Assembly: GCA_937958265.1 (NCBI GenBank)
Contig: CALGNX010000020.1
Span: 1-64,000 of the forward strand
Direction of reading: 5' to 3'
Length of the DNA stretch: 64,000 nt
Source of the DNA: an uncultured Algibacter sp.
GTDB taxonomy: Bacteria > Bacteroidota > Bacteroidia > Flavobacteriales > Flavobacteriaceae
The notes below the pieces were generated by a model. The model ran no database searches and was not told where the DNA came from. It worked only from the letters and a program-made list of their open reading frames with translations. Numbering within the stretch: the stretch's first letter is position 1; each line of letters starts with the position of its first letter. Made by a program: the position numbers and the translations under genes. Below, in pieces: positions 3,442 to 42,881 of this stretch.

Positions 3442-3618
3442 AAATAAACGAAAACTTTTACAGTTATATCTTTTTAATACTAGATGCTATTTTTTAAATT
3501 TTAAGTAGTTATTAGTAATGTATAATTCAAAGTGTTTTACGAAATATTAACGTGAAGTGGCACAATTATCAATGCATTGCATTTATAATATTTTTTTTTA
3601 TTAATGTTTTGTTGATTA

Positions 3619-3773
3619 GCGTTAGGGATTGTAGTGGAAATCCTTTTTGTGCTTTATCGTAAACCATAGGAAATTAGTGGTTTTTAGTTTATTGTATGTT
3701 TTGTAAGCTATACAAATTATTTGGGCACAATAAAGATTGTAACGTAAAGCGCGACCCTTTTCGGGTAACGCCC
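3619..3773 (+). repeat. Dispersed intergenic element, copy 1 (forward, long variable centre)
   Basis: Starts GCGTTAGGGATTGTAGTGGAAATCC and ends TGTAACGTAAAGCGCGACCCTTTTCGGGTAACGCCC, as in copies at 24518, 42882 and 50233. Confidence 0.8.
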
Positions 3774-37053: not shown

Positions 37054-40000
37054 TTACTTTCGCATAACTTTAACATTCATTTCTTCAATTTTTTTATCAG
37101 ATAATGGCGAAGGTGCTCCAAAAAGTAAGTCTTCACTAGTTCCTGTTTTTGGGAATGCCATAACTTCTCTAATCGATGCTTTTTTCTCTAAAATCATCAT
37201 AAGTCGGTCCACACCCCAAGCAATACCGCCGTGCGGTGGTGTACCATAATGAAATGCTTTATACATGGTACCAACACTCTTCATCATTTCCTCTTTATTG
37301 TACCCCATATTTTTGTAAGTAGCTTCTAAAATTTCTGGTTTGTGTGCCCTTACGGAGCCACCACCAATTTCGTAACCATTTAAAATTAAATCATATTGTT
37401 GGGCAATAATACTTCCAATCTCATTTTCTTTACCATTTATGTGTTTGTTTAAATCGTAAATTGCGGGCATAGAAAATGGGTTATGGGTAAATGTCCAGCG
37501 GCCTTCATCTGTTTTTTCAAACATCGGAAAATCGATAACCCAGGCAGGTCTTAATTCCTTTGGGTTAATTAAACGTAGCATCTTTGCTAATTCTTGACGA
37601 ACCGCATCTAGTGCTTTGTTTGCAGTAGCATAATCTGCTGCAGAAAAGAATACAATATCGCCAACTTGTGCGTTGGTTTTCTTAATAATTCCTGCTGCTA
37701 TCTCTTCACCTAAAAACTTAATAATTGGAGATTGTAAATCGCTTTCATTAACAATAATGTAAGCCAAACCTCCAAGTCCATGACTTTGAGCTAAAGCCGT
37801 AAGTTTTTCAATTTGGCCTTTAGATAGGCGTTTACTACCTTGTTCTTCAGCAGAGACTTTAATGCATTTTACAATACCGCCTGCTTCAATAGGTTTGCTA
37901 AATACTTGAAAAGTAGTGTCTTTTACAATTTCAGTAATATCTTGGAGTTTTAATCCGAAACGTAAATCGGGACGGTCGCAACCATAACTATCCATGGCTT
38001 CTTTATAGGTGATAACTTCAAAGGGGCGTAAAATCCATTTTTTACCATATATTTTATTCACAATACCGTTAAACATTTCGGTATTTAAATCTATAATTTG
38101 TTGCATGCTGGCATAGGCCATTTCGATATCCAATTGTGTAAACTCCGGTTGGCGGTCGCCACGAGAATCTTCATCTCTAAAACAACGTGCCAGTTGAAAG
38201 TATTTCTCGTAACCAGAAACCATTAGCATTTGTTTAAATTGCTGCGGGGCTTGCGGTAGTGTGTAAAACGATCCTGCTTGTTTACGTGTTGGTACAATAA
38301 ATTCGCGGGCACCTTCATCGGTTCCGGCACTTAATATTGGTGTTTCAATTTCAAGGAAATCTTGCTCGTCTAAAATATCGCGCATTAATTTAATTACCTT
38401 ATGGCGATTAACAATAACACGTCGTACATCGTCATTTCTGTGGTCTAGGTATTTGTATTGAAAACGTACATTTTCATTTGTTTTTGTAGCGCGCTTTATT
38501 TCAAAAGGTAAGGTTTTAGAAAGGTTTAAAATTTCTAAATCTTTGGCTTCTAGTTCAATTTTACCGGTTCTTAAAGCTGTGTTGTAATCGTCTTCTTTTC
38601 GTTGAACAATGTTTCCTGTAACGGTGATAACCGATTCTGGCTTCAATTTTACTAAGTCGTCTAGATTAGCAAATGATTCTCGACTTAATCGCACCTGAAA
38701 AACCTGTGTACTAGAATCTCGTAAATCGATAAACATTAATTCACCATGATCGCGAACACTAGAAACCCAACCGGAGAATGTTACGGTTTCCGAAATATTG
38801 GCTTCAGATACATTAGAAATTACATGTGTTCTGTATTCATCTTTTATAACAATTGGTATTTCTGGAAGTACTTCTGTTTGTTTAGTTGCTGCTTGGTGGT
38901 TATAGGTTGTTGGTTGTTCGTTTCTGTTCTCTGTATTCAGTTTTTCGTCAACTTTGCCAGAAAGCGCATTTAAAATTCCTTCACGTATTACTTTTCCAGA
39001 AGCACCTTTACCAATAATAGCGATTACTTTTCCAACAAGAATACCAGCTTTACCTTGGTTTCCAGCTTTGATATCGTTGGAAATAGATTCATTATCTGAA
39101 ATCACTTTCCCAATAGCATTCTCAATTTGAGACTCCGAAATTGAGTTGTCTTCAAAATATTTGTTATAATTAAAGTCTTTATCTTTTAAGTAGGCTGTTA
39201 TTGCATTTTGAGCTAAAACTGAAGTGATTTTTTCATTTTTAAACAATTGAAAAATTTCAATTAAATGTTCTATGTTGTGAATATTAGCATAATCATCAGC
39301 ACCAATATTGTTAACTAAACTTTTTGCAACAAATGAGGGGGCTTTAATCACATTATTTATAGCAATAAAGGTTTTGGAGCGTAATGCATCTGCTGTAAAA
39401 AATTTGGCATCCTGCGGTAAAACGCCACCCGTAATTAGTATAGATTCTACTGCAAAGGGTAAGGTGCTTAAATCGACATTAATAGATTTAACAACATCTT
39501 TTATAGATACAAAAGGTAAATCTGGTTCGGAAATAAAGCGGTAGTCTGCTTCAAATTCCTTTTTACGCATGGTTTTGGTCTGCTTTAATTCTGCATCCCA
39601 AAGTACGGTAGTTTGATCTGGCCTAAAAGCTTTATTTTCTGTAAAGTAATTAAGTTGTTTCTCTATTTCTTCTTTTAAAGCATCGACCATAAACTTAAAT
39701 GAATTTAAGTTTTTTATTTCGGTACGCGGATTTAAATCTGTGCTGTTTTTTTTACGAAGCGATACCGAAACATCAGATTTAAATTCCCCTTTTTCAAGGT
39801 TGGCTTCTGAAATGCCTAAATTTTGAACAATACGTTGTATGTATTGTGCGTAGGTTGAAGCGTCCTCTATATTACGAATACAAGGTTCTGTAACAATTTC
39901 AATTAACGGTACACCAGCTTTATTAAAATCGACGAGCGATATTTTTTTCTCATGCATTAATTTAGCCGCATCTTCCTCAATATGTACTTGTGTTAAATGT

Positions 40001-40389
40001 ACGGTAAATTGTGAGCCATCGTTACGGAAGCAAGAAACTTCGCCATCTGGAATTATTGGGTTATGAAACTGTGTAATTTGAATATTCTTAGGGTTGTCTG
40101 GGTATTCATAATGTTTTCTATCCCAAGAAATAACGTTATTTTTAAAAGTAGATTTTACGGCTTTGCCAAAATAAATGGCCTTAGTTATAGCTTCTTTATT
40201 AATGGCTGGTAATACACCCATTTGCCCAGTACAAACCGAACATATGTTTTGGTTAGGTTGCTCTATCTCTTTGTTAGCGCAGGAACAAAATAATTTCGAT
40301 TTTGTATTTAGTCTAACATGTGTTTCTATGCCAATTACTAACTCTAATTGGTGTGTTTTAAGTAGTGCGTTTAATTGTTCCAATTCCAT
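37054..40389 (-). CDS. gatB-aspS: Fusion protein: Asp/Glu-tRNA amidotransferase subunit B (GatB) + aspartyl-tRNA synthetase (AspRS)
   Basis: N-terminal ELVIGIETHVRLNTKSKLFCSC...VCTGQMGVLP and C-terminal GatB/YqeY tail; then GWVSSVRDHGELMFIDLRD, DEQDFLEIETPILSAGTDEGAREFIVP, FRDEDSRGDRQPEFTQLDIE, HYGTPPHGGIAWGVDRLMMI of bacterial AspRS in one uninterrupted 1111-aa ORF. Confidence 0.95.
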   Translation of the reverse strand: MELEQLNALLKTHQLELVIGIETHVRLNTKSKLFCSCANKEIEQPNQNICSVCTGQMGVLPAINKEAITKAIYFGKAVKSTFKNNVISWDRKHYEYPDNPKNIQITQFHNPIIPDGEVSCFRNDGSQFTVHLTQVHIEEDAAKLMHEKKISLVDFNKAGVPLIEIVTEPCIRNIEDASTYAQYIQRIVQNLGISEANLEKGEFKSDVSVSLRKKNSTDLNPRTEIKNLNSFKFMVDALKEEIEKQLNYFTENKAFRPDQTTVLWDAELKQTKTMRKKEFEADYRFISEPDLPFVSIKDVVKSINVDLSTLPFAVESILITGGVLPQDAKFFTADALRSKTFIAINNVIKAPSFVAKSLVNNIGADDYANIHNIEHLIEIFQLFKNEKITSVLAQNAITAYLKDKDFNYNKYFEDNSISESQIENAIGKVISDNESISNDIKAGNQGKAGILVGKVIAIIGKGASGKVIREGILNALSGKVDEKLNTENRNEQPTTYNHQAATKQTEVLPEIPIVIKDEYRTHVISNVSEANISETVTFSGWVSSVRDHGELMFIDLRDSSTQVFQVRLSRESFANLDDLVKLKPESVITVTGNIVQRKEDDYNTALRTGKIELEAKDLEILNLSKTLPFEIKRATKTNENVRFQYKYLDHRNDDVRRVIVNRHKVIKLMRDILDEQDFLEIETPILSAGTDEGAREFIVPTRKQAGSFYTLPQAPQQFKQMLMVSGYEKYFQLARCFRDEDSRGDRQPEFTQLDIEMAYASMQQIIDLNTEMFNGIVNKIYGKKWILRPFEVITYKEAMDSYGCDRPDLRFGLKLQDITEIVKDTTFQVFSKPIEAGGIVKCIKVSAEEQGSKRLSKGQIEKLTALAQSHGLGGLAYIIVNESDLQSPIIKFLGEEIAAGIIKKTNAQVGDIVFFSAADYATANKALDAVRQELAKMLRLINPKELRPAWVIDFPMFEKTDEGRWTFTHNPFSMPAIYDLNKHINGKENEIGSIIAQQYDLILNGYEIGGGSVRAHKPEILEATYKNMGYNKEEMMKSVGTMYKAFHYGTPPHGGIAWGVDRLMMILEKKASIREVMAFPKTGTSEDLLFGAPSPLSDKKIEEMNVKVMRK

Positions 40390-41789
40390 TATAGTGTGTC
40401 TTTTAAGAAGTTAGCAAACTTCAAAACAAGTGTCTCGTTATTTTTTGCTGCTGTAATTTGTAAGCCAGTTGTTGTGCCTTGCGGAATGGTTAGTGTAGGC
40501 AGTTGCCCCAAACTAAAACCAACTGTGTAAGCATCTGATAAGTACATGGCATGTGGGTTTTTTAAGCTATCTCCAATTTTTGGTGGTACATTTGGTGTAA
40601 CTGGTGATATGATGATATCGACCGCCTTAAAATCGTTTTCGAAATTTTTAGATATAGCATCGCGAAGTGCTAAGCCTTTTAAATAAATAGCATCTGAAAA
40701 TCCTTGTGATAATACTTGATTTCCGCCAACAATCCTACGTTTTGATTCTTCTGAAAAGTTTTCGGATCGCGTTACGGAATAGGTCTCTTTTAAGTTGTCG
40801 CCTTCAATCCGATTTCCATAATTGGTGCCGTCTAACCTTGATAGATTCGAGGCTGTTTCAGCCATTGCTAAGGTGTAGTATGTGGATACTAAAGTTTCAG
40901 ACTCAAAGAAATCTAAAGCCTTTACGGTAATGCCTTTTGCTTTTATTTTTTCTATGGTTTCAAGAAAATCTGATTTTACTTTAGCATCAATAGCATCATT
41001 TTCTATAAAATTTTTGAAATAACCTATAGTTTTAATTTGTGTTGAATTTGAAATACTATCCTGAGGTATTTCATGGGAAGCGTAAGTGGTTTGATCCTTA
41101 ATATCTTTACCACTTATGGCGTTTAATACAATGCGAATATCTTCAATAGATTTTGCAATTGGCCCAACACAATCTGTAGAGGAGGCGTAAGCCATTAATC
41201 CAAAACGCGAAATACGACCGTAGGTTGGTTTTAAGCCATACACATTATTGTAACCAGCAGGCTGGCGTACAGAGCCGCCGGTATCGCCGCCAATTGAAAA
41301 AACAGTATAATCTTTTGCGACATTAACAGCAGAGCCACCACTAGAACCACCACTAACTAAATTGGGGTTGTGTGCATTTTTTACAGCGCCAAAAATAGTA
41401 TTTTCAGACGAAGAGCCGTGCCCAAAACTATCTCCGTTTTCCTTTACTAACGGTATCGCGCCAGCATCTAATAATTTTTGAATTGCCGTTGCTGTGTAAG
41501 CCGATTTGTATTTTTTAAGTAAATCTGAACTTGCTGTTGTGTATGTGCCCTGCAGCATGTAAACATCTTTAATGCCAAAAGGGATACCCTCTAGCAAACC
41601 AATGGTTTCTCCTTTAGCAATTTTTAAGTCTACTTTTGCTGCTAATTCCAAGGCTGTTTTATCCAATAAGGCATTTACCGTATTGTGCGTGTTTTGTTTT
41701 AATAAATCTAAACGTTGTTGTATTAGTGCTGTACAAGTGATGTCTTGATTTATCAATTGTTTATGTATGGTTTGTATTTGAGAACTCAT
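40389..41789 (-). CDS. gatA: Asp/Glu-tRNA amidotransferase subunit A
   Basis: GIPFGIKDVYMLQGTYTTASSDLL, GSSSENTIFGAVKNAHNPNLVSGGSSGGSAVNVA, SIGGDTGGSVRQPAGYNNVYGLKPTYGRISRFG. Confidence 0.96.
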   Translation of the reverse strand: MSSQIQTIHKQLINQDITCTALIQQRLDLLKQNTHNTVNALLDKTALELAAKVDLKIAKGETIGLLEGIPFGIKDVYMLQGTYTTASSDLLKKYKSAYTATAIQKLLDAGAIPLVKENGDSFGHGSSSENTIFGAVKNAHNPNLVSGGSSGGSAVNVAKDYTVFSIGGDTGGSVRQPAGYNNVYGLKPTYGRISRFGLMAYASSTDCVGPIAKSIEDIRIVLNAISGKDIKDQTTYASHEIPQDSISNSTQIKTIGYFKNFIENDAIDAKVKSDFLETIEKIKAKGITVKALDFFESETLVSTYYTLAMAETASNLSRLDGTNYGNRIEGDNLKETYSVTRSENFSEESKRRIVGGNQVLSQGFSDAIYLKGLALRDAISKNFENDFKAVDIIISPVTPNVPPKIGDSLKNPHAMYLSDAYTVGFSLGQLPTLTIPQGTTTGLQITAAKNNETLVLKFANFLKDTL

Positions 41790-41791
41790 AT

Positions 41792-42058
41792 TTATTCTTC
41801 TATAACTTTAGAAACTACTAAATAGCCGTTTTTTGATTTTGGAAAGTTTTCAATAATAATTTGCTTTTCTAAAGCAGAGCTGTTAATAACTGTATCTGCT
41901 CTTAAATCGTCTAAAAATAAAGCATTATTATGACTCGCATTATTCAAATTATTATTTGTGTTGGCCTTTTTAATAACCTCAAATAACTTGTTTACAGCCT
42001 CACTAGGCTGTGCGTCTTTAATACTTGACAATACGTCAACTGTCATAATTTTACTCAT
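41792..42058 (-). CDS. gatC: GatC-like amidotransferase subunit C
   Basis: Position immediately before gatA (2-bp gap), size 88 aa and C-terminal LRADTVINSSALEKQIIIENFPKSKNGYLVVSKVIE typical of GatC. Confidence 0.8.
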   Translation of the reverse strand: MSKIMTVDVLSSIKDAQPSEAVNKLFEVIKKANTNNNLNNASHNNALFLDDLRADTVINSSALEKQIIIENFPKSKNGYLVVSKVIEE

Positions 42059-42162: not shown

Positions 42163-42195
42163 AATAAAAAAGCCTTCCAAATTTTGGAAGGCTTT
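42163..42195 (-). terminator. Strong minus-strand hairpin plus U-run in the gatC upstream region
   Basis: Minus strand AAAGCCTTCC-aaaattt-GGAAGGCTTTTTTATTA. Confidence 0.75.
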
Positions 42196-42881
42196 ATATT
42201 TTTATAAACAACAACCTTCCGGATCCTATATGTTAGGATTATTGAAATTATTATTATTAAAATTTATTTTCATAGCAATATTCTTATGCTCAAATATATG
42301 CAGAATAAAAAGATTAAGCACTGTTTTTAGAAAGATCATACCTTTATTGTCAAATTATTAAAAAAAATAAAGCAATGTTATAGTATGTTTAAACTATTTG
42401 AATGAATTTGGTTTTGTAGGTGAGTTGTAATTTTAAAATTATATTAAATTACTTTTCCAAAAGAAATTGGTTGACATTTTTTTTTGTAAGCTATCTAGTT
42501 TTAGATCATTTTCTTGAAATAAGGAAAAATAGTAAAAAGGTTTTAGCGTTTTTGAAGTAAAAATTTTGTGTTGTGCTGTGTTGAAATTTAATTTTTAAGG
42601 CAGTTTGAGTTTTTTTGTTGTATTGAGCCTTGATGAAAAAAGGCGAAACTTAATTTAAGGTGGTTTTTAGGAGGTTTAAGAGGTTATTTTAAAATTAATA
42701 AATGTTGATAATTTTGTTTGCACTTCCTTTAAATCCGTTTTTAAAATGCTAATATTTTGTATATTTGGCTGTCTACGAATAGCTGCCTTGAGGTGTCTTT
42801 TTTGTGTAATTAGGTTGTTTTACAACGGTTAATAGTTTTTTGTTGGCCCGTTGTAGTTAGCCAATATGTAGTAACCAGTTA

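Follow-up and report, generated by a model that had tools for sequence, protein, structure and literature searches.

The window analysed here is the whole 64,000-nucleotide stretch at the start of contig CALGNX010000020.1, from an uncultured Algibacter sp. Its reverse strand carries an operon, gatC-gatA-gatB::aspS, in which the GatCAB subunit GatB and an aspartyl-tRNA synthetase (AspRS) are encoded in one reading frame, preceded by an Asn-rich leader and a terminator (Table 1). We describe the locus and its distribution, and weigh the operon as a candidate Asn-transamidosome that would stand in for asparagine synthetase in some marine flavobacteria.

Fusion protein and operon

The initial annotation had described a single uninterrupted GatB::AspRS frame of 1111 residues, and Pfam and NCBIfam profiles bear this out. 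Pfam places GatB_N at residues 17-298 (308.8 bits) and GatB_Yqey at 372-475 in the first half, and an OB-fold (536-621), the class II core (638-1082, 354.8 bits) and a GAD domain (830-927, 70.7 bits) in the second. Both halves pass their NCBIfam cut-offs (NF004012 for GatB; NF001750 for AspRS, at 713 bits). The moiety boundaries proposed initially, with GatB extending to about residue 480 and the linker and the loop RDHGELMF following it, agree with this domain placement. Fusions are conserved across deep divergence, catalytic motifs included (57-90% identity), and C35, C37, C50 and C53 of GatB are invariant among those aligned. The linker differs in sequence from genus to genus, with a steady length near 30-45 residues; it is the only feature that we read, as a low-confidence segment, from a structure predicted with a shallow alignment (mean predicted local distance difference test score, 60.7; predicted template-modelling score, 0.42). 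No dedicated model for a GatB/AspRS fusion matched above cut-off in NCBIfam release 20, although 'bifunctional GatB/AspS' may well be in use as a database label.

The tight gene spacing first reported was found in the sequence: base 40389 is common to the end of gatA and the start of the fusion (TAATG), and gatC ends 2 bp ahead of gatA. The 1-bp overlap is kept in 75 of 83 loci. Judged by eye, the GatA signature motifs are intact in the window; around the catalytic Lys/Ser/Ser, the Ser motifs are present in 18/18 loci and the Lys motif in 16/18. GatC is divergent. The window protein by itself falls under the Pfam cut-off (21.9 vs 23 bits), and a profile of its family matches Aquifex GatC (3h0l_C, E 0.0025). 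The GatC proteins of fusion operons lack the usual N-terminal match and have an Asn-rich middle (NTNNNLNNASHNNA), which is odd in a subunit of a putative Asn-making enzyme and is shared by most Flavobacteriaceae relatives.

Table 1. Features of the operon and of the region upstream of gatC, in window coordinates.
Feature	Position	Strand	Basis or remark
-7 promoter element TATATTTG, consensus TAnnTTTG	42291..42298	(-)	conserved box
Leader peptide open reading frame MKINFNNNNFNNPNI*, 15 codons, 8 Asn	42226..42273	(-)	
Region 2 of the putative attenuator, GGAAGGTTGTTGTT, with two alternative partners: leader Asn codons (1:2) and region 3 (2:3, antiterminator)	42207..42220	(-)	
Intrinsic terminator, regions 3:4, GCCTTCC-AAAATTT-GGAAGGC-T6	42166..42192	(-)	z -5.5
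gatC, 88 residues, divergent, Asn-rich middle	41792..42058	(-)	family profile
gatA, 466-residue amidase	40389..41789	(-)	PF01425, 367.8 bits
gatB::aspS fusion, 1111 residues, uninterrupted open reading frame	37054..40389	(-)	open reading frame and Pfam/NCBIfam profiles
GatB moiety, residues 1-478, cradle and YqeY-like tail	38956..40389	(-)	Pfam
Linker, about residues 479-515, variable sequence, low predicted confidence	38845..38955	(-)	
AspRS moiety, residues 516-1111, bacterial type with GAD domain	37054..38844	(-)	
RDHG motif of the anticodon-binding domain, residues 546-549, His548	38743..38754	(-)	alignment

Gene content of the host genome

The host genome (2.89 Mb, 99.83% complete) also encodes a stand-alone 584-residue AspRS, AsnRS, LysRS, GluRS and GlnRS, with a single GatB and a single GluRS. 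Its AsnRS, checked in this one genome among the fusion carriers, scores above the NCBIfam cut-off. As AsnRS, GlnRS and a separate AspRS are all there, the fusion is not the sole route to Asn-tRNA, and with the synthetase set complete no tRNA requires it for charging. On gene content, the function missing from this genome is a way to make asparagine, not tRNA charging: neither AsnA nor AsnB was found in it. The sole weak PF00733 match is below threshold, starts MKRVVIGLSGGVDSS and looks like MnmA; it was rejected as AsnB.

These results split the initial proposal of an Asn-transamidosome. Intact GatA motifs, a tRNA(Asn) with a U1-A72 pair (see below) and the missing AsnA and AsnB fit it. Its implied premise, that the fusion substitutes for AsnRS, has to be given up because the genome has asnS and glnS, together with a second aspS that stands alone; the fusion appears instead to stand in for asparagine synthetase.

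Mutual exclusion with asparagine synthetases

We surveyed 241 genomes of the window's family, each at least 95% complete. PF00733 alone was too loose a marker for AsnB, matching 237/241 genomes with paralogs and MnmA included, and we therefore searched with canonical AsnB from a relative (L187; NF006949, 931 bits). Canonical AsnB occurs in 183 genomes, 0/43 of the fusion carriers vs 183/198 of the others; AsnA occurs in 18, none of them a carrier. Taken together, AsnB or AsnA is present in 0/43 fusion genomes vs 193/198 others (Fisher p about 2e-42, shared ancestry ignored). Two genera hold both states, g200 (fusion in G397, AsnB in G576) and g235 (fusion in G602, AsnB in G433), and the replacement has thus taken place at short range. 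We found no paper on this exclusion in the open-access literature.

Five genomes (G165, G464, G469, G486 and G551) have no fusion, canonical AsnB or AsnA. They are possibly Asn auxotrophs or users of another route; G469 and G165 carry other PF00733 proteins.

Distribution and origin of the fusion

GatB is present in 43/241 family genomes and is fused to AspRS in 43/43, in an open frame of 1115-1130 residues; none of the 43 has a stand-alone GatB. A second family contributes eight full-length copies, and the fusion occurs in about 75 named genomes, including Algibacter, Polaribacter, Flavobacterium, Lutibacter, Aquimarina and Wenyingzhuangia, and also Jiulongibacter (Cytophagales). Because the same frame recurs in all these sets, the fusion is neither a chance joining nor an assembly error. 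In the wider class, a stand-alone GatB of about 490 residues is the usual state.

In maximum-likelihood trees, which were quick and have long outgroup branches, the fused AspRS sequences form one clade and the fused GatB sequences another, so that a single fusion event is the simplest reading. Both halves lie far from the resident AspRS and from Bacteroidia GatB, and the source of the AspRS half was not placed. Given a single event, the patchy distribution would need transfer or repeated loss. Our search for literature on a GatB-AspRS fusion found none, GapMind mentioning AspS2 only; the search was limited to open-access papers, and this absence is weak evidence.

Three further loci deserve mention. 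A Spirochaetia locus in a metagenome-assembled genome (L176, 2280-7441) was rejected as a distant fusion, since gatB and aspS lie next to each other there as two genes; it is an unfused gatC-gatA-gatB-aspS operon with an RDHG AspRS, and possibly a picture of the pre-fusion arrangement. On a contig labelled Bifidobacterium breve (L177), which is probably mis-binned, there is the N-terminal portion of a fusion of Bacteroidota type (65% identity). In G126, a second, 68-codon fragment (C38, 22990-23193) is 71% identical to the fusion C-terminus and is probably the remainder of the copy cut at the end of contig C122.

Specificity signatures

Alignment of the anticodon-binding domain separates three types of AspRS. 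RDHG is found in 82/83 fused AspRS and also in the enzymes of Pseudomonas aeruginosa, Mycobacterium smegmatis and the Spirochaetia locus; the M. smegmatis enzyme is non-discriminating (PMC6523644). All 15 stand-alone Bacteroidota AspRS tested, the host's resident enzyme included, have R[DN]KG at this site; the motif is RDLG in E. coli AspRS and Thermus thermophilus AspRS1. The His that the initial annotation proposed as shared with Pseudomonas-type non-discriminating AspRS is borne out, against Lys in the stand-alone Bacteroidota AspRS and Leu in E. coli and T. thermophilus AspRS1. Two of the Lys-type AspRS belong to family members lacking GatB (G134, G375), where the enzyme must discriminate, as Asp would otherwise be inserted at Asn codons. 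The signature would fit aspartylation of tRNA(Asn) by the fused AspRS. Host tRNA(Asn) has a U1-A72 pair and host tRNA(Asp) G1-C72; U1-A72 is a determinant of GatCAB amidation and G1-C72 an antideterminant (PMC9976931). Host tRNA(Gln) is also U1-A72.

Leader and putative attenuator upstream of gatC

Just upstream of gatC, beyond the region covered by the initial annotation, which had missed it, lie a leader rich in the cognate codon, an intrinsic terminator and, judged by sequence and energy, a competing antiterminator. The window leader reads ATG AAA ATA AAT TTT AAT AAT AAT AAT TTC AAT AAT CCT AAC ATA TAG; it is followed by GGAAGGTTGTTGTT and then by GCCTTCC-AAAATTT-GGAAGGC-T6, and is the only such Asn leader on either strand of the window. 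Of 71 testable named loci, 31 have the consensus M-x-x-N(n)-F-N-N-P-N-x upstream of gatC. Shuffled upstream regions gave an expectation of 0.09 leaders against 32 observed, and 1.44 Mb of control sequence contained one comparable reading frame. Among further fusion genomes of the family the leader is present in 24/42 (25/43 with the window); upstream of asnB it was found at none of 20 genes.

A TAnnTTTG box, the sigma-A -7 consensus (PMC9723704, PMC7366714), stands 18-31 nucleotides ahead of the leader ATG in 32/32 leader-bearing loci (shuffled expectation, 1.06). The leader stop is spaced 0-6 nucleotides from region 2. Of the 31 aligned leaders, 30 have GGAAGG of region 2 fully paired with CCTTCC of region 3, which can instead form the terminator with region 4. 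The terminator stem has two pairs with compensatory changes (44 G-C/4 A-U and 19 A-U/19 G-C), above column shuffles. When the window leader is folded as untranslated RNA, the Asn codons pair with GUUGUUGUU (z -5.2). With a simple model of masking by the ribosome, the antiterminator retains 0 to -4 kcal/mol for a ribosome positioned at the stop, compared with -10 to -19 kcal/mol for one positioned on the Asn codons. No Rfam family, and so no T-box riboswitch, reached its gathering score near 42 kb. From these features we infer a ribosome-mediated attenuator of the trp/his type, with Asn as the residue that would be sensed. Leader attenuation has been suggested for amino-acid operons of Flavobacterium psychrophilum (PMC9723704); we found no published case of an Asn-specific leader-peptide attenuator in the open-access literature.

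Nine loci (L101, L102, L107, L111, L115, L123, L130, L140 and L150) are leaderless; a conserved promoter resembling AAAACTTTTGTAATTTTGC lies near gatC in them instead, which suggests that the attenuator was lost or gained along with a promoter switch.

Discussion

The operon very probably encodes a covalently assembled Asn-transamidosome that replaces asparagine synthetase, with attenuation setting its transcription in about half of the carriers. The fused AspRS would mischarge tRNA(Asn) with Asp, and the tethered GatB, together with GatA and GatC, would amidate Asp-tRNA(Asn) to Asn-tRNA(Asn) with glutamine as the ammonia donor. The resident AspRS would supply Asp-tRNA(Asp), and AsnRS would reuse free Asn. 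With ample Asn-tRNA(Asn), a ribosome at the leader stop would cover region 2 and the terminator would form; with scarce Asn-tRNA(Asn), a ribosome stalled on the Asn codons would allow 2:3 pairing and readthrough into gatC-gatA-gatB::aspS. A fuller version, which we offer tentatively and are slightly inclined to doubt as a whole, is that the fused AspRS is devoted to mischarging tRNA(Asn) and hands over Asp-tRNA(Asn) to its own amidotransferase without release, that asparagine synthetase was replaced repeatedly in Flavobacteriaceae, and that the leader is the first known Asn-specific leader-peptide attenuator, through which Asn-tRNA(Asn), as the product, would control how much of it is made.

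Several observations weigh against the replacement of asparagine synthetase by an attenuated transamidosome. The activity of the fusion enzyme is predicted from sequence; His548 is a correlate of non-discrimination, and a second specificity position known from the P. aeruginosa enzyme is Asp in the fusion and not Gly. The comparison of fusion and AsnB distributions is uncorrected for phylogeny, and 16/43 fusion genomes have other PF00733 proteins of about 570-640 residues, mostly 600-640, that may make Asn, although the host genome has none. As for the leader, it is absent from 18/43 fusion genomes of the family; the 2:3 arms hardly vary, and we detected no covariation in the 1:2 helix (cognate, -7.9 kcal/mol vs swapped, -7.7 kcal/mol).

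The last of these points also favours the alternative that survives best, in which the Asn-rich reading frame is no ribosome sensor, the terminator ending a constitutive short RNA or the frame acting through translational coupling or as a small protein. We consider this explanation improbable: Asn codons, the 0-6 nucleotide stop spacing, antiterminator and terminator occur together in 31 aligned leaders, and attenuation by a leader has been suggested for other flavobacterial amino-acid operons, as cited above. A model in which tRNA(Asn) is charged solely or mainly through the fusion, as happens in bacteria lacking AsnRS, would suit GatCAB with an AspRS of non-discriminating motif and the U1-A72 pair of tRNA(Asn); it is very unlikely, given that the host has asnS, above the NCBIfam cut-off, and that the variable tracking the fusion is AsnB/AsnA. 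It is hardly credible that GatCAB serves Gln-tRNA(Gln) formation with a non-discriminating GluRS and AspRS as a passenger, for although tRNA(Gln) is U1-A72 too and GatCAB enzymes are often dual-specific, GlnRS is present, GluRS is single, the leader codons are Asn and the exclusion is with Asn synthetases. As remote is a redundant or vestigial operon: every tRNA can be charged directly by AsnRS, GlnRS and AspRS, and the carriers are patchy (43/241), but the catalytic motifs, fusion frame and attenuator are conserved and the exclusion with AsnB is complete.

The transamidosome replacing asparagine synthetase that we favour would follow a known pathway, as Bdellovibrio, Deinococcus and Thermus make Asn by a tRNA-dependent route (PMC4206432); the version in the window is set apart by its second AspRS, which is of bacterial type and joined to GatB. 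Deinococcus radiodurans and T. thermophilus are alike in having two AspRS, AsnRS, GlnRS and GatCAB, the last for Asn synthesis, and no Asn synthetase. Their AspRS2, however, is archaeal-type, GAD-less and separate, whereas the fused enzyme is bacterial-type with a GAD domain: it scores 184.6 bits against the archaeal non-discriminating model (cut-off 368), compared with 713 for the bacterial one. In a survey of 547 genera, a second AspRS in genomes with AsnRS, GlnRS and GatCAB but no Asn synthetase was confined to Deinococcus-Thermus (PMC4206432). Bdellovibrio bacteriovorus has AsnRS, GlnRS, GatCAB, a bacterial-type AspRS and no AsnA/AsnB, and its non-discriminating AspRS with GatCAB complements an E. 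coli Asn auxotroph (PMC4206432); unlike in the window, one unfused AspRS serves both tRNAs. The P. aeruginosa Asn-transamidosome (PDB 4wj3/4wj4) likewise combines GatCAB with a bacterial-type non-discriminating AspRS bearing RDHG, but its assembly is non-covalent. Bifunctional AspS/GatC (NCBIfam NF009460, PRK12820) also joins AspRS covalently to a GatCAB subunit; there the partner is GatC and AspRS comes first, and the window fusion is not of this type (476 bits vs a cut-off of 1379). The leader shares with the trp/his/ilv attenuators a cognate-codon-rich reading frame, a stop beside region 2 and an antiterminator competing with an intrinsic terminator, and differs in being Asn-specific and ahead of a tRNA-dependent amidation operon in Bacteroidota.

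A natural single-chain transamidosome would be a direct test bed for the channeling of mischarged tRNA. It would also close a gap in Asn biosynthesis for many flavobacteria whose genomes, annotated by gene presence, would be called Asn auxotrophs, and provide a clean case of a tRNA-dependent pathway displacing an amino-acid synthetase. With the attenuator, Asn would join the amino acids sensed through leader peptides, few of which are described in this phylum; the attenuator also makes the predicted Asn-responsive expression testable with a simple reporter.

Elsewhere in the window, positions 3614-3760 match Flavo-1 RNA (RF01705, 47.1 bits), a motif of unknown function that is widespread in Flavobacteriaceae.

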